This document shows positions 2,281-64,000 of a stretch of DNA of 64,000 nt, piece by piece. Position 1 is the first letter of the stretch, and every line of letters begins with the position of its first letter. The notes under the pieces were generated by a model that did not search any database, was not told the origin of the DNA, and worked only from the letters and a program-made list of their open reading frames with translations. Source of the DNA: Cohaesibacter intestini (GTDB lineage: Bacteria; Pseudomonadota; Alphaproteobacteria; Rhizobiales; Cohaesibacteraceae). The position numbers and the translations under genes were made by a program. The stretch lies in the NCBI RefSeq assembly GCF_003324485.1, contig NZ_QODK01000002.1, positions 1,054,001 through 1,118,000 on the forward strand, read 5' to 3'.

Positions 2281-4944
<2,664 letters not shown>

Positions 4945-4945
4945 A

Positions 4946-4972
4946 GGGGGGAGGCGCAAGCCTCCCTTTTTA
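4946..4972 (+). terminator. Rho-independent terminator after uvrB
   Basis: GGGAGGC (4949-4955), loop GCAA, GCCTCCC (4960-4966), then five T. It lies directly after the uvrB stop. Confidence 0.88.
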
Positions 4973-5018
4973 AACGGCACGCCATCTATGCATGAGAGAC
5001 AAGAGCTGCTTGATATAT

Positions 5019-5543
5019 CTATTGGCTTCGTTTGAGATCAACGCAATAGAGCCAGAACGCCATGCATCCAAGCGCCAGCACAAAGACATGCGGCATCATG
5101 ACATTGGCTTTGAAGATGAGGCCGAGCCAGTCAAACTCACCCCAATTTGGTCGCCACGAAGAATAAATATTGAAGTCTATTTCCCCATCCACTGCGCAAG
5201 CAATGTTCTCTTCGAGCGCCTTGATCCGCGGAACATAGGCATTTTGATAGCTCTTCCAGACCGCATCGGTGATCCAGAAAGGCAGAGCAGACAAAGCCGC
5301 AAACAACATCGTCATCGCCCCTGCCCGTGTACGCGGCCTTGCATAGACCGCAAGAATGGTCGCCAGCCCGATGGTCACCGACCAACCTTTCAAGGCCAAT
5401 GCATGCTGATTGAAACTCTCATAGGTGAGATAGATCAGTTCAGATTCTTTGATGACAGCGTCACAGGTCAAAACCGGGTCCAGCCTTCCAACAAACAGCG
5501 CCAAAGCACCACTATAAGGCGCACCTGAGAACCAATACAACAC
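5019..5543 (-). CDS. Hypothetical multi-pass membrane protein
   Basis: A 174-residue protein I do not recognise. It starts at a GTG. Hydrophobic segments occur near the N-terminus, around residues 52-67 (GWSVTIGLATILAVYA), around 77-92 (MTMLFAALSALPFWI) and near the C-terminus (VMMPHVFVLALGCMAFWLY). A hydrophilic loop with aromatic residues separates the last two. It is convergent with uvrB and divergent from ccdA. No catalytic motif is visible. Codon use resembles its neighbours, so I take it as a real gene of unknown function. Confidence 0.6.
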   Translation of the reverse strand: MLYWFSGAPYSGALALFVGRLDPVLTCDAVIKESELIYLTYESFNQHALALKGWSVTIGLATILAVYARPRTRAGAMTMLFAALSALPFWITDAVWKSYQNAYVPRIKALEENIACAVDGEIDFNIYSSWRPNWGEFDWLGLIFKANVMMPHVFVLALGCMAFWLYCVDLKRSQ

Positions 5544-54395: not shown

Positions 54396-54472
54396 GGCGG
54401 AGTAGCTCAGTTGGTTAGAGCAGCGGAATCATAATCCGCGTGTCGGGGGTTCAAGTCCCTCCTCCGCTACCA
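54396..54472 (+). tRNA. tRNA-Met (anticodon CAT), elongator type
   Basis: A 77-nt cloverleaf. Acceptor GGCGGAG pairs with CTCCGCT (first pair G-U), the D arm is AGCTCAGTTGGTTAGAGC, the anticodon stem GCGGA/TCCGC encloses ATCATAA with CAT at 54430-54432, the T arm is GGGGGTTCAAGTCCCTC, and CCA is encoded (54470-54472). The sequence resembles the alphaproteobacterial elongator Met tRNA rather than initiator or lysidine-Ile tRNA. A phage block follows, so this gene is a likely integration site. Confidence 0.95.
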
Positions 54473-57900: not shown

Positions 57901-59013
57901 TCATACCCCGCCAAAGGTCACGCCGTATCCGCTCAGCTGACTGGATTGGGTCGCGCTCGACTGGGGTGAGGTCTGTTTCTTACGTGTATCTTTCCCGGCC
58001 CCGCCCTTTGGCAGCTCTATGGACAGGTTGCAAAGATAGCCTGAGGCGTTGAGCGTATGGGTGCAGCTCTTGACCCGATATTGGCCATCCACCCCCGCCC
58101 GCGCGCCTTTCAGATTGATCAGGCCACCGGCAAAGAGCGAGGGATTGCCGTCACAGGTGATTGTGCCGCTCCCAGCGGCCCGCTCAGCGCCTTCTTTGTC
58201 CGACTTGGCTGCAGCCTCGGCCTCCTCTTTCGTGGCCTTGAGCGAGGCGCTGGAGCGGGCCTTGGCCTTAGCCTCTTTCTCGCCCTCGGCCTCGACCTCG
58301 ATCACCTCGCCCTTTTCAAAATCGAAATAGCGCGAAGCAAAAGCCGAATGCGCAGGCCTGCTTTGCTTGGGCGAGATCGACCAGCCGGTCAGGTTTGGCG
58401 ATTGATCGGACCAAACGATATCGACCGGCACAAGCGAGCGCCCACTCGCCGACTTGCCACCATTGGCCTCGATCATCACCGGCAGGTCATCAAACAGGCT
58501 CGACTTGCCGCCGACCTCACGCGCGATCCGCTTGGCAAATTCCAGATAGCTCTCGCCATCCGCCACCTCGCTGACCCGCATGATCTTGCCGATTGCCTCA
58601 TCAATGCGAGGCGGCTGGAGACCGGCCTCTTTTGCCGCATCGGTGAGGATCTCTTTCACCGTCTTATTTTGCCAGCTCTTTTGCAGGGGTTGCTTGGCCT
58701 TGCCGGTCAGATCCGCCGCATCAGCCGAGACCGCAAGCGTGCGGCCACCACTGCCCCCGCTTGAGGTGACATTGCTCACCTTGCCCCGGAATGTTTCTTG
58801 AGCGCCATGTTTCGAACGGCCCAAGATGATCGACACCGGGTCATTCTTTTGTGGCAGATAAATCGCCCCATCCTTGTCATCGAGCGTCAGCGAGGCAGTC
58901 GCCGCCGCCTCATCAGGGTCATTGATTGTCAGGCTGATCACCCGCGCCGGATCGTCCTCACTGGACAAACGCAATTGACCAGCGATTGACACTGCATAAT
59001 AACTTGCACCCAT
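57901..59013 (-). CDS. Phage late control gene D-like tail hub protein
   Basis: A 370-residue gpD-family protein, part of the baseplate hub of contractile tails. N-terminal ASLTLDDKDGAIYLPQKNDPVSIILG and FRGKVSNVTSSGGSGGRTLAVSADAADLTGKAKQP are the family opening. A charged coiled segment rich in Glu, Ala and Lys follows. GTITCDGNPSLFAGGLINLKGARAGVDGQYRVKSCTHTL (adjacent stretches) forms the OB-like end. P2 gpD gives the family its name; a regulatory role is not implied. Confidence 0.88.
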   Translation of the reverse strand: MGASYYAVSIAGQLRLSSEDDPARVISLTINDPDEAAATASLTLDDKDGAIYLPQKNDPVSIILGRSKHGAQETFRGKVSNVTSSGGSGGRTLAVSADAADLTGKAKQPLQKSWQNKTVKEILTDAAKEAGLQPPRIDEAIGKIMRVSEVADGESYLEFAKRIAREVGGKSSLFDDLPVMIEANGGKSASGRSLVPVDIVWSDQSPNLTGWSISPKQSRPAHSAFASRYFDFEKGEVIEVEAEGEKEAKAKARSSASLKATKEEAEAAAKSDKEGAERAAGSGTITCDGNPSLFAGGLINLKGARAGVDGQYRVKSCTHTLNASGYLCNLSIELPKGGAGKDTRKKQTSPQSSATQSSQLSGYGVTFGGV

Positions 59014-59240
59014 CAGTCAAAAATCCTCACTGCAGTGATCTGCTCAGCCGCCGCGAAGCTGGAGGCGACCGGCACCTTGATCTCAGCGCCGAGCGGCAGC
59101 TCGACAAAAGCGGACAAGCCAGGATTTGACACCAAGACCGCCTCGACCGCACCAACGATCCGCCGCCGATAGTGAGACCAGAGCAGGCCGGACAGTTTCA
59201 GGCCGGTCGCCCTGACCTTGATCACATCATAATCAGACAT
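59013..59240 (-). CDS. Phage tail protein X-like
   Basis: A 75-residue protein matching the gpX/LysM-like pattern, beginning MSDYDVIKVRATGLKLSGLLWSHYRRR, then VEAVLVSNPGLSAFVELPLGAEIKVP. It overlaps gpD by 1 nt. The upstream ATG pair allows a start one codon earlier. It probably binds peptidoglycan or the tail tip. Confidence 0.8.
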   Translation of the reverse strand: MSDYDVIKVRATGLKLSGLLWSHYRRRIVGAVEAVLVSNPGLSAFVELPLGAEIKVPVASSFAAAEQITAVRIFD

Positions 59241-59683
59241 CACAAGCCGAGCCTTTCCATCAGGTTTTTGAGCCGGGTCATGGCAGCGGCCCGATCCGGT
59301 TTGAGCGTCAATTCCAGCTCAAGGCTGACATCAATCACCCGCCCGATCCCCCGACCGCTCAAATGCCGGTCAGACATCTCACACGAGGCGATTGTGTACC
59401 AGCCCATCACCGACCCATCCCCACGCGCCACAAAGACCGGCACCGCATTATCACACGCCTCCTCAAGCCCGGTGACCTCAGGAAAGCCACCAAGCTCGAA
59501 AGGCGCGATCTTGCCCTCAAGGGTGAATTTCTTGTCACCCTTGCCAATTTTCTCATGGGTCTGGCGACCGCCCAAGACGCCCTTGCGAGCGACCCGCGCG
59601 GTGGTCGATTGGGAGGCCCTCAAGCCGCCAAAGACCTGCCCCTTGATCACCACCCCATCAATGACAAATAGATCAGACATCAC
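59240..59683 (-). CDS. Phage tail protein gpU-like
   Basis: A 147-residue tail-completion/baseplate protein. SQSTTARVARKGVLGGRQTHEKIGKGDKKFTLEGKIAPFELGG (in stretches) and GWYTIASCEMSDRHLSGRGIGRVIDVSLELEL follow the gpU pattern. It overlaps the tape measure by 4 nt and gpX by about 4 nt, in the order T-U-X-D seen in many P2-like phages. Confidence 0.82.
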   Translation of the reverse strand: MMSDLFVIDGVVIKGQVFGGLRASQSTTARVARKGVLGGRQTHEKIGKGDKKFTLEGKIAPFELGGFPEVTGLEEACDNAVPVFVARGDGSVMGWYTIASCEMSDRHLSGRGIGRVIDVSLELELTLKPDRAAAMTRLKNLMERLGL

Positions 59684-62304
59684 GCAAATTCCGAATTGTG
59701 AAAGCTGCTCATCTTTTGGTCACGCCAAAGCCGTTCGATCTCGGCCCGCACCGCCTGAGCAATCGCCGCCGGGTCCATCCCGCCGCCGCTGATTGTGATC
59801 TGAGGGGCAAAGACTTCACCACCCCCACGGCCAGCCACCGCCGCCATGCTATCCTTGCGAGATAGGACGCGGCCATTTTTGGCAAAGGTGGCGATCTCGG
59901 TGCCATCCTCATTGACCTCGTAGGAGGCCCCGGCATAACCCGGACCACCCAAGGCCCTTTGACCATCGACCGGCTTGGACACGGCCCCGCCTGACACATT
60001 GACAGACCGGATCTGAGCCGCCTTTTCCGCCAAGGCCTGAGCAAGAGGCGCAGAGCGCACGCCCATGGCTTGAGCCTGCAAGACCTTGTCAATCTCGGCC
60101 TGACGGATCCGCGCGGTCAGGCCATCAATCTCACCAGACAATTGCGATCGCTCAGCCTCAAGGCTCGCCGAGCCGCCACCTGACGAAATTTGCGCATTGA
60201 CCGCCTGCAGGCGTTGCTGCTTGGAGGCCAGATCATCCCGGATCGGCAAGCCCGCGCCGGGCGATTGACCCAAGCCCAGACTAGACCGCGCGCTTTGCCC
60301 CCATTTATAGAGGTCACCGATGATCGGCAGGTCACGCGCCCATTGCTCTTGAGACGCATGCTTTGCATCAATCCGCTTGCGATCCTCAGCCGTGACATCC
60401 TCGACCTTTTTAATGCCGGGATCATCCATCAGGGCCAGCGCCCCAAGCACCCCACCCATTGCGGCCTTGCCCATCAGCTTGCGAGAGGCCGAGCCGAGCG
60501 AGCGGGTTTTCTTAGCCGCCCGATCCGCCTTGGCGGAATAATCATCGAGCGCACTGCCAAAGGTGCCAAAGGCCCGCACGAGACTGCCCGCCCGGAAAGT
60601 TGCCTTGAGCAAGGCAACAGATCCAACAACCCCGGCCAAAGCAAAGGCAGCGCCACCGCCGACCACCAATAAGGTGCCAACGGATCCGGCCAACAGGGCA
60701 ATGGTCTTGGTCAATTCCGGGTTGGCCTTGGCCCATTCCCGACCGGCATTGATCAACTCGGTGGTGGTTTGCAAAAGCTCCCGATAGTCAGGCAACAATT
60801 GCGTGCCAATTTCCGTTTTGAGCGCTGACCATGCCGAGCCCAAAATCTGCTCATCACCGACAGCATTGTCAGACATGGCCTCAGAGATCTCTTTGGCCTC
60901 GCCCTTTGCCGCCCTGAGCTCATCGCGGAGCTTTTTGATTTGCGCTCTTTGCTCAAGCAGGACCGTGAAAGCACTAGAGCCCTCCTCGCCTGCAATCTTC
61001 TTGGTCAGCTCGATTTGCTCGGCACTGCCAAGGTCTTTCATCTTATCGGCAATGTCGTCGAGAATATCCTCAAACGGCCTCAGATTGCCGTTGAGGTCCT
61101 TGGTCTCGACCTTGAGACGCGCCAGCGCCTTTTGTGCCATCTTCGGAGGCCCGGCAAGACGCGAGATCACAGCCCGCAGCGCCGTGCCTGCCATCGAGCC
61201 TTGGATCCCGGCATCACCAAGCTTGCCAGTCGCAGCCGCGACATATTCCAGCGACATGCCTGCCGCCTTGGCTTTTGGTCCGACATATTTGAGCGTTTCG
61301 CCAATCTGTTTTACATTGACGTTGGACCGGGTGAAGGTGCCGACCAGCACATCAGAAATCCGCCCCATATCCTTGCCGGTCATGCCGTAACCCGACATAA
61401 TATTGGAGGCAATATCAGCCGTTCCAGCGAGATCGGTGCGGCCCGCTTTGGACAAGTTGAGGACCGAGGGCATCGAGCTCAGAATGTCAGACACCGACAT
61501 GCCAGCCATGCCAAGAAAACGCTGAGCACTGGCTGCATTGACATTAGTGAAACTTGTCGTTTCCCCCAGCCGGAGCGCCTGATCTCGCAGGAGGCCGAAT
61601 TTTTCCTTGTCGCGGATCGTGCGGGTCACGGCACCAACCGCGACCATTTCTTGCTCAAAATTCTTGGCCTCATCAATCGGGTTTTTAACACCGGCCAAGA
61701 CCCGGCGACCTGTATGGATCCCGGTATAACCCGTTGCCGTCAGACCGGTCGCCCGGTTCAGGCTCTCATCAAGCTTGCGCTTTGCCTCGGCCCATTTTTT
61801 CTGTTGAGCCGTAACCTTTTTGAATTTTGAATAGTTGGCATCGAGACGGGAATTGACCTTACCGACCGCAGAGGCGAGTTCACGCTCCTTGTCTGTCAAA
61901 TTCTTGACGCTAATCCCGGCGGTTTTGAGAGCCTCACGGTTGCCTCTTAATGCCGCACGGTTGGCCTTGAATTCTGAGGAGGCCTTTCTCGCAGCACTTT
62001 GCGCCCGCTCCAGTTCAACCCGCATTTTTGCAGTTGGTCGAGTAGCATTCTTAAAGGCCTGACCAAGCTCTTTCGCCCGCTGTTGCGCAGTCCGCATTTT
62101 GGTTGCCGACTTGCCGAGCTGGCTTTCGGCCTTGCGAAAATCTTCGATCAGCTTGACCGGCCCGCGCAGCTTTTGGAGCTGACCCAATTCACGCTTTGCC
62201 TTGGCACCAAATTTGCCCGCAGCACCCGACATCTTGCCAAGCGGCCCGGTCAGCTTATCAACGCCCCGCACCGTGAGTTTTGTTTCAATTTCCCGCGTTG
62301 ACAT
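59680..62304 (-). CDS. Phage tail tape measure protein (gpT-like)
   Basis: An 874-residue tape measure protein. A basic coiled-coil N-terminus (residues 1-190) leads into the TP901-type core: EAKNFEQEMVAVGAVTRTIRDKEKFGLLRDQALRLGETTSFTNVNAASAQRFLGMAGMSVSDILSSMP (in stretches). Two hydrophobic segments appear around ETIALLAGSVGTLLVVGGGAAFALAGVVG-like sequence. A glycine-rich linker and a helical C-terminus follow. The length suggests a tail of roughly 130 nm by the usual ruler relation; that is inference. GGAGG lies 7 nt before the ATG, next to the E' hairpin. Confidence 0.93.
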   Translation of the reverse strand: MSTREIETKLTVRGVDKLTGPLGKMSGAAGKFGAKAKRELGQLQKLRGPVKLIEDFRKAESQLGKSATKMRTAQQRAKELGQAFKNATRPTAKMRVELERAQSAARKASSEFKANRAALRGNREALKTAGISVKNLTDKERELASAVGKVNSRLDANYSKFKKVTAQQKKWAEAKRKLDESLNRATGLTATGYTGIHTGRRVLAGVKNPIDEAKNFEQEMVAVGAVTRTIRDKEKFGLLRDQALRLGETTSFTNVNAASAQRFLGMAGMSVSDILSSMPSVLNLSKAGRTDLAGTADIASNIMSGYGMTGKDMGRISDVLVGTFTRSNVNVKQIGETLKYVGPKAKAAGMSLEYVAAATGKLGDAGIQGSMAGTALRAVISRLAGPPKMAQKALARLKVETKDLNGNLRPFEDILDDIADKMKDLGSAEQIELTKKIAGEEGSSAFTVLLEQRAQIKKLRDELRAAKGEAKEISEAMSDNAVGDEQILGSAWSALKTEIGTQLLPDYRELLQTTTELINAGREWAKANPELTKTIALLAGSVGTLLVVGGGAAFALAGVVGSVALLKATFRAGSLVRAFGTFGSALDDYSAKADRAAKKTRSLGSASRKLMGKAAMGGVLGALALMDDPGIKKVEDVTAEDRKRIDAKHASQEQWARDLPIIGDLYKWGQSARSSLGLGQSPGAGLPIRDDLASKQQRLQAVNAQISSGGGSASLEAERSQLSGEIDGLTARIRQAEIDKVLQAQAMGVRSAPLAQALAEKAAQIRSVNVSGGAVSKPVDGQRALGGPGYAGASYEVNEDGTEIATFAKNGRVLSRKDSMAAVAGRGGGEVFAPQITISGGGMDPAAIAQAVRAEIERLWRDQKMSSFHNSEFA

Positions 62305-62310
62305 GGCAAG

Positions 62311-62350
62311 CCTCCAAAAAGAAAAGCCGTCAGCCGATCACTCGGCTGAC
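62311..62350 (-). terminator. Hairpin between E' and tape measure
   Basis: GTCAGCCGA (62350-62342 on the minus strand) pairs with TCGGCTGAC (62337-62329). The loop contains the E' TGA stop. It is followed by GGC TTTTC TTTTT and then the GGAGG of the tape measure gene. It looks like an intrinsic terminator or a translational control structure inside the tail operon. Confidence 0.6.
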
Positions 62351-62741
62351 GACCTGTCAGGGATTAGGGAATGAAGAAAGCCCAGCTCACCAAGAGGCAG
62401 GGCCATCAGCTCAGACAGCGACCAGCCGGTCGCAGACGCGATCTCAAAGCAGACCCGATAAAGATCCACCTTGATCGGATTGGCTTTGGTAAAGTCGGCA
62501 ACTAGATCAGATCGGGAAAAAAAGCAGCTTTACCGCGCGCCGCAGCCGACCAGAAAGATTCCGGATCCATTGTGCGAATATCATCAAGGGTCACACCGGC
62601 CATGAGCGCCGCCGCCTTGCAATAGCTCACGAGGACCGGCTCTTTTTCGTCAAGCTCAGCATAAAAATCAATAATATCGCCACCGGTCGGATCCTTAAAC
62701 GTGAGGTCGGAAAAGGTGAGTTTCTTTTTGCTCTCGGTCAT
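62338..62741 (-). CDS. gpE-E' fusion, tail assembly chaperone made by -1 frameshifting (inferred)
   Basis: A 134-residue product if ribosomes slip -1 at T_TTT_TTT (62523-62517). The first 75 residues come from the gpE frame and the next 59 from the -1 frame, which starts SRSDLVADFTKANPIK and ends LIPDRSSAE at TGA 62340-62338. The -1 segment resembles the C-terminal half of E+E' in P2-like phages, where the same trick is established. The extended product is not found in ordinary ORF calls. Confidence 0.75.
62502..62741 (-). CDS. Phage tail assembly protein gpE-like
   Basis: A 79-residue protein: TESKKKLTFSDLTFKDPTGGD, ending VSYCKAAALMAGVTLDDIRTMDPESFWSAAARGKAAFFPDLI (in two stretches). It sits between tail tube and tape measure, the place of P2 gpE. 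The stop lies just after a seven-T run that is a candidate frameshift site. AAAGGA precedes the ATG. The short form and the fusion probably both work as tail chaperones. Confidence 0.85.
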   Translation of the reverse strand: MTESKKKLTFSDLTFKDPTGGDIIDFYAELDEKEPVLVSYCKAAALMAGVTLDDIRTMDPESFWSAAARGKAAFFPDLI

Positions 62742-62754
62742 TGGTCTTTCCTTT

Positions 62755-62802
62755 GGATGAGAGTGGATGAGAGTGGATGAGAGTGGATGAGAGTGGATGA
62801 GA
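62755..62802. repeat. Decamer tandem repeat in the gpE leader
   Basis: GAGTGGATGA occurs four times in a row (62761-62800), flanked by a partial unit (GGATGA at 62755). On the coding strand it forms TCATCCACTC units ending just before the AAAGGA RBS of gpE. Copy number may vary. Confidence 0.9.
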
Positions 62803-62849: not shown

Positions 62850-63368
62850 TTAGACAAGCCCAAGGATCGCATCATCCTCGGCCTCGATATTGACACCGGC
62901 AAAGCGCGGACTTTCGCCCCACGCCCAGCCAAACAGCTCTTTGCCATCCTCGACAATATCCGCCGCCATGATGCTCTTGAGCTCATAGTCATGCTTGTGC
63001 AGGCCGGTGCGATTTTTGGCCTCAGGCGTGATCCCGCCAAGGCGACAGGTCGCAGTGACCTCATGCGGCACTTTCTCGCCGGTCACCTCATCCTCAACAA
63101 CGCCGGTGAAGGTCCAGACGGCCTTTTTACGGAACACCGCATAAAGATCCGAATGGTTGCCCAGCATTTTGAGGGTCATGGTCAGTTTTTCCATTTGGCC
63201 GGTGCTGATCTCAATGGTCGGGCCGGATGCTCCAGCCCCATCAAAATCTTCATAGCCATCCACCAAAGCAGGGAAGCCCAACTCCTCAATCAGCTCGGCA
63301 AAGACCTGATCAGGCAGCTCGGAGCAAGTTGCAGAAACCCGCTTCATTACCTTGAATTTTTGCGCCAT
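62850..63368 (-). CDS. Phage major tail tube protein (FII-like)
   Basis: A 172-residue inner tail tube protein. KFKVMKRVSATCSELPDQVFAELIEELGFPALVDGYEDFDGAGASGPTIEISTGQMEKLTMTL (in stretches) and FTGVVEDEVTGEKVPHEVTATCRLGGITP are the family pattern of P2 FII. It follows the sheath by 12 nt. The product of the late tail operon. Confidence 0.92.
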   Translation of the reverse strand: MAQKFKVMKRVSATCSELPDQVFAELIEELGFPALVDGYEDFDGAGASGPTIEISTGQMEKLTMTLKMLGNHSDLYAVFRKKAVWTFTGVVEDEVTGEKVPHEVTATCRLGGITPEAKNRTGLHKHDYELKSIMAADIVEDGKELFGWAWGESPRFAGVNIEAEDDAILGLV

Positions 63369-63380
63369 GGTTTCAGCTCC

Positions 63381-64000
63381 TTACAGGCTCAAGTTTTTGG
63401 CAAAAGTTTCGAGCTCGGCGATCTCCAGCTCAATGCCGGCATCGTCGCGCTCCATGGTCAGATCAATCCGGGTGAGAGGCGCACGCGGCTCGGCCCGGCC
63501 CGTAAAGGTCAGCTTGCCTTTGCGCCAATCACTTGGTGTTTCAGCATCTGGCACGAACAGGACTTTAGGAGCGGAATAGATGATTTCCCGCTGAGCCATC
63601 CCCACCAGCCAATTGTTGGTCTGTTTGATGACCGCCTTGATCGCCCGCTTGGGGTTCATATTGTATTTGAGCAGGAACACCTTGTAGGAGCGCAACAGCG
63701 TCAGCAGGATGTAATTTTGCATCCTCACAACGTTGTAATACATCTCCAGCGGATCGCTGGACAAAGTGTGACAGGTCACAAGGATCATACCGCCCTCGCC
63801 CGCCGCAAAGTCATCACCGACGCGACCGCGCACGATAATGTCACATTGCGCATTGAGGAGCCGCTGACCTTCCGTCGATGGATCCATCCAATCAAAGGTC
63901 ATCTCACGGCCCGGCGCGGCAATGCGCAAAGCCCGATTGCCCGCCACATGAGACGGCACGCCATCATGCTCGGCATCAACAGCCGCTTGCAAACCGGCAA
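63381..64000 (-). CDS. Phage tail sheath protein FI-like (partial, N-terminus beyond the window)
   Basis: The C-terminal 206 residues of a contractile sheath protein; the frame runs off the right edge. The visible part includes VAGNRALRIAAPG-type loops, LLNAQCDIIVRGRVG, ILVTCHTLSSDP, NVVRMQNYILLTLLRSYKVFLL and IDLTMERDDAG, as in P2 FI-like sheaths. Its presence shows that the phage tail is contractile (myovirus-like or tailocin). Confidence 0.9.
   Translation of the reverse strand, partial: AGLQAAVDAEHDGVPSHVAGNRALRIAAPGREMTFDWMDPSTEGQRLLNAQCDIIVRGRVGDDFAAGEGGMILVTCHTLSSDPLEMYYNVVRMQNYILLTLLRSYKVFLLKYNMNPKRAIKAVIKQTNNWLVGMAQREIIYSAPKVLFVPDAETPSDWRKGKLTFTGRAEPRAPLTRIDLTMERDDAGIELEIAELETFAKNLSL

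Follow-up and report, generated by a model that had tools for sequence, protein, structure and literature searches.

The window, that is, the whole 64,000-nucleotide stretch of DNA analysed here, comes from the marine bacterium Cohaesibacter intestini and stops 1,155 bases short of the end of a contig of 1,119,155 bases. From 57.9 to 64.0 kb, open reading frames and family profile matches outline a P2-type tail operon on the minus strand, with the genes in the same order as in P2: sheath end, tail tube, gpE, tape measure, gpU, gpX and gpD (all on the minus strand). The C-terminal part of the tail sheath, in the gpFI position (63381..63998; phrog_23 tail sheath, E=7.7e-15), runs off the window, and is followed by a 172-aa putative tail tube protein (62850..63368), assigned from its P2 gpFII position and from phrog_55 (E=2e-8). 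The label of phrog_55 is "head closure", which three phage records also put on the gene in the FII position; the tail tube family TIGR01611 matches the same frame below cut-off (E=0.0034). Beyond gpE lie the tape measure protein in the gpT position (59680..62304, 874 aa; PF10145 E=1.9e-53, TIGR01760 E=9.2e-84, phrog_28 E=3e-121), gpU (59240..59683; PF06995 Phage_P2_GpU, E=3e-18), gpX (59013..59243; PF05489 Phage_tail_X, E=2.8e-6) and the baseplate hub gpD (57901..59013; PF05954 Phage_GPD E=1.3e-12, phrog_52 E=1.3e-55). A tRNA-Met gene near the end of the phage-like genes (54396-54472) may mark the attachment site. A tandem repeat with a 10-bp unit (TGGATGAGAG), perfect and present in 4.9 copies, occupies 62754-62802 in the gap from the end of the tail tube gene to the gpE start, and the translations of the close copies L002, L003 and L008 (see below) have no such expansion at that place.

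The gpE gene starts at the ATG at 62741 and ends with the TAG at 62504-62502, giving a zero-frame product of 79 aa (62502..62741). It is a putative tail assembly chaperone, based on its match to PF10109 Phage_TAC_7 ("E, or 41 or 14"): gpE alone scores 22.4 bits (E=1.2e-4), just below the 25-bit cut-off, while the fused form described below scores 28.6 bits over the same best stretch, 9-65. A probable gpE homologue thus sits between the tail tube and tape measure genes, as in a P2-type E/E+E' arrangement. Near its 3' end is an X_XXY_YYZ heptamer in frame with gpE, also as in that arrangement: T_TTT_TTT (62517..62523), read as GC T TTT TTT CCC. The first-pass annotation had placed the heptamer at these positions and in this phase, which re-reading the sequence bears out, and had let gpE end right after GCT TTT TTT CCC; in fact, four codons (CCC GAT CTG ATC) stand between the heptamer and the TAG.

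After the slip site, translation of the -1 frame gives, as had been read before, 59 sense codons up to a TGA at 62340-62338; this is the E' extension (62338..62517), whose assignment is based on identity and pN/pS. Its product is SRSDLVADFTKANPIKVDLYRVCFEIASATGWSLSELMALPLGELGFLHSLIPDRSSAE; it begins with SRSDL, not with VADF as was originally given. Joined to gpE, it makes a product of 134 aa. As the -1 frame does not open before 62529, the shift has to fall in the short overlap of the two frames. Between the slip site and an ATG at 62406, the sole ATG, GTG or TTG in the -1 frame is a GTG at 62467..62469, while rare starts (ATC, CTG) are present.

By itself, the layout of gpE, heptamer and -1 frame is only suggestive. 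By chance, ~22% of first-order random coding-like sequences reach an open frame of 59 codons, and synonymous recodings of GKAAFFPDLI give an in-frame XXXYYYZ of any kind in ~25% and T_TTT_TTT in 1.8%. Seventeen long ORFs of the window, chosen by length as putative genes (7696 codons), hold 16 in-frame XXXYYYZ heptamers and no T_TTT_TTT. Runs of seven T's occur nine times on the minus strand and once on the plus strand, so a run of this length is no rarity on the minus strand. It is the conservation of the seven T's, together with selection in the -1 frame, that lifts the case above chance.

We searched for gpE in 60 other genomes and the window's own. It is present in three of the 60 (4/61 with the window's), two of them close (84 and 81% identity) and the third, L004, distant (36%); IMG/VR provides an additional close copy (L008, 96%). 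One of the close copies, L002, is at the same place as L005, on C. marisflavi NZ_FOVR01000006.1, the nearest named relative within the window's own genus. A gpE profile search of 385 genomes of the class had the window itself as its sole match. Across the aligned four close copies, namely the window with L002, L003 and L008, none of the seven T's changes, whereas third positions near them vary (GC[T/G/A], CC[C/A]), and the offset of the two frames and the stop codons are the same in all four. The -1 segment of the window shares 90% amino acid identity with L002, 87% with L003 and 97% with L008. Past the gpE stop, 53 codons contain 23 variable columns, which are distributed 5/2/16 over positions 1/2/3 of the -1 frame. 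The pN/pS in this region is 0.06-0.26 in the -1 frame for five of the six possible pairs, which are non-independent; over five such pairs the other two frames have values of at least 0.85 or no silent changes, with the zero frame at 0.85-1.21 and one pair without a silent change. Beyond the gpE stop the -1 frame is therefore conserved and under selection at the protein level, as in a P2-type E/E+E' pair; the segment has homologues, and the earlier impression that it looks conserved holds. The -1 frame of L002 lacks any ATG, GTG or TTG ahead of its counterpart of the ATG at 62406, the GTG of the window being GTA there, and the residues ahead of that GTG, DFTKANPIK, are identical in all four close copies. 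Selection in the -1 frame, coupled with the absence of such a start in L002, indicates that the conserved segment is protein-coding in the -1 frame, most simply reached from gpE.

The comparison was extended to 18 hand-checked loci: those of the window, L002, L003, L008, L004, L016, L035, L036 and L037, and those of P2, Fels-2, AP3, M16-3, 3LV2017, Aeromonas 59.1, Vibrio phi 2, Chuche and Valp1. In 17 of the 18, an in-frame XXXYYYZ is followed by a -1 frame of 53-91 codons, the exception being L004, from a Cohaesibacter MAG. The heptamers are TTTTTTT (4), TTTTTTG (7), TTTTTTC (3), GGGAAAA (1), GGGAAAG (1) and GGGTTTT (1); the seven-T run, whose conservation the first-pass annotation had proposed to check, is thus invariant in the three close relatives, and 13 loci further away have a heptamer of equal phase in the corresponding position. 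These are read sites and not a blind scan, since the starting place of the heptamer scan was given for eight of the 18 loci, two of which, Aeromonas 59.1 and Chuche, carry another in-frame heptamer a short way upstream; in L016 and L037, the heptamer itself helped to identify the E/E' pair. The phage set is likewise chosen, not random: seven records were picked for their P2-type look among the 60 matches listed of 1020, and Valp1 and P2 were reached in other ways. Left out of the 18 were longer copies of L002 and L004 (L005, L006), loci on the same contig as L008 (L012, L014), one further IMG/VR contig (L009, L013, L015), a weak match within a longer ORF in a Clostridia MAG (L007), matches inside the tape measure gene (L017, L018, L019), and L038, a locus of the same order with a different upstream layout, in which neither an in-frame heptamer nor E' was found. 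Among the viral P2-type E' relatives in IMG/VR, an in-frame heptamer is found in the overlap in 80/80 of the best 80 of at least 561 confirmed loci, 78 with TTTTTTG alone and two with GGGTTTT and TTTTTTA together. As most of these are near-identical relatives of P2, with six distinct junction contexts, they give a picture of P2 relatives and not 80 independent cases.

Comparison of E' with its homologues, proposed in the first-pass annotation, succeeds among the close relatives (87-97% identical), while P2-type E' is matched weakly by profile: against seven hand-picked P2-type E' sequences, hhalign gives a probability of 44.5% and E=2.3e-4 over 33 columns. By tblastn, the E' of L035 is 46% identical over 24 residues (E=0.004). 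The -1 segment alone has no significant family in Pfam, PHROGs or NCBIfam. When phages were queried by tblastn, gpE had no match and E' hit Vibrio phage Valp1 alone (E=0.06), so the relatives were reached via the tape measure gene. The Fels-2 record notes the E/E' frameshift as the P2 record does, and the record of Vibrio phi 2 lists a joined "gpGT analog". In two of the eight phage records besides P2, Klebsiella phage 3LV2017 (L029) and Aeromonas phage 59.1 (L030), E' is unannotated, despite the presence of both heptamer and -1 frame.

L035 and L036, from two other genomes of the genus, have a divergent P2-type tail operon in which the gpE stop lies 31 codons beyond TTTTTTC, an overlap of E and E' much longer than in the window. 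In L004 and its longer copy L006, gpE and E' (about 30% identical to that of the window) are kept in the -1 relation, with GCTTTTTATG in the overlap in place of an XXXYYYZ heptamer, and ~2 kb separate E' from the tape measure gene. In L006 this interval (~3380-5389) is other DNA, containing a reading frame that we take to resemble a BRO-type antirepressor. L004 may use a looser site or may have lost the frameshift; the looser sites would be of the kind listed for PRFect as "five" and "twofive", the available text of which reports the XXXYYY motif to be absent from most frameshift overlaps examined (PMC10885494). A bolder reading, which we regard as rather unlikely, is that one host genus maintains the -1 fusion by several slip mechanisms: T_TTT_TTT here, where ribosome and polymerase could both slip, TTTTTTC in L035 and L036, and at GCTTTTTATG in L004 a slip of a non-canonical kind, on five T's or with a single tRNA.

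How the ribosome, or the transcript, gets from gpE into E' has to be weighed against three other explanations. The main live rival is slippage of RNA polymerase on the seven T's, by which transcripts with one extra U would bring E' into the gpE frame, whether or not ribosomes slip as well. The homopolymer is invariant in all four close copies, and DNA alignment alone cannot tell the two kinds of slippage apart. However, the distant loci have six T's followed by G, C or A, or GGGAAAA, GGGAAAG or GGGTTTT, in a phase suited to tandem tRNAs, which a bare polymerase site would not require; this argument is partly circular where sites were picked by phase, as several distant ones were. The phase of the heptamer in relatives with shorter runs speaks against polymerase slippage as the main mechanism, and we consider it improbable.

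Still less credible is an E' that is a separate gene, starting on its own or by re-initiation after the gpE stop, without any frameshift. The GTG in the window would open an ORF of 43 aa, the equivalent in Vibrio phage Valp1 is annotated as an ORF of its own, with its start inside an ATGA shared with gpE, and the records of M16-3, Chuche, Fels-2 and AP3 give E' its own CDS. Against this, a GTG start would leave out the invariant DFTKANPIK, and the seven T's would have no reason to persist. The codon being GTA in L002, internal initiation is a poor explanation, and we rejected an E' start at 62467..62469 or at any ATG, GTG or TTG. Finally, a chance open frame, or a gpE broken by a recent indel, is as good as dismissed: even if open frames of this length are common in random sequence, offset, stop codons and T run are common to all four close copies, and the -1 frame is under purifying selection.

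Programmed -1 ribosomal frameshifting of the P2 E/E+E' type, analogous to lambda G/GT, is thus very probably what the locus encodes, and the conserved heptamer and the selection in the -1 frame support this reading, which had been proposed in the first-pass annotation. Most ribosomes would read gpE and terminate at the TAG at 62504, while a minority would move one base back on T_TTT_TTT; there, both Phe codons, one in the P site and one in the A site, could re-pair just as well in the -1 frame, and slippage of tandem Phe-tRNAs would fit this site. Slipped ribosomes would read 59 further codons and produce the 134-residue gpE+E' fusion. By analogy with lambda, a siphophage, the short form would coat the tape measure protein, and tail tube subunits would be recruited by the rare long form, so that the ratio of the two forms would matter for tail building. 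In lambda, a -1 frameshift yields gpG and gpGT, a short and a long tail chaperone binding the tape measure protein, to which gpE and gpE+E' are here likened by published description; as a point against the reading, the available text of the same source states that in E. coli constructs U_UUU_UUU shifted less readily than A_AAA_AAG (PMC5009743).

Where a -1 frameshift has an RNA stimulator, a stable and conserved fold is expected a few nucleotides past the slip. Folding the 87 nt downstream in the four close copies gave modest z-scores (-1.50, -2.05, -2.07 and -1.95) and no clear stimulator, and a 64-nt fold including the slip site gave z -0.26. The single-sequence folds differ between copies. 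In the four-sequence consensus fold, one of 23 pairs is changed on both sides and one is broken in one sequence; its outer helix begins 15 nt, and its inner hairpin 27 nt, after the heptamer. For the Burkholderia phages KS5, KS14 and KL3, in which the P2 E+E' site is reported to be conserved and a frameshift is predicted, the available text states that no hairpin was found within 60 bp downstream, and it mentions no stimulator for P2 either (PMC3091744).

The closest established system is gpE/gpE+E' of phage P2, where, as the first-pass annotation noted, the frameshift is known and is annotated in the record (AF063097). There too, the pair lies between FII and T, the -1 shift takes place on a T-rich heptamer that lies in frame close to the end of E, and the extensions are alike in length, with 57 codons in P2 and 59 in the window, but the slip site is TTTTTTG in P2 and TTTTTTT followed by CC here, and E' is weakly similar by profile. 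The sites of KS5, KS14 and KL3 also differ from the window in having TTTTTTG (PMC3091744). Related too, according to the available published description, are P2-like prophages of other hosts, Stenotrophomonas and Xanthomonas, for which T7G is predicted in Smp131 and T7C, as here, in related ones (PMC3931495). Our literature search found no paper on a tail assembly chaperone frameshift at TTTTTTT, and, judged by titles, none on an E/E' frameshift in Cohaesibacter prophages. With T7G and T7C slips at E/E' already in print as predictions, the Cohaesibacter site is a clear but ordinary new example, which leaves the current understanding unchanged. Phage records can drop E', and for the Cohaesibacter P2-type prophage, its recognition adds a hidden and probably required tail gene to the annotation.
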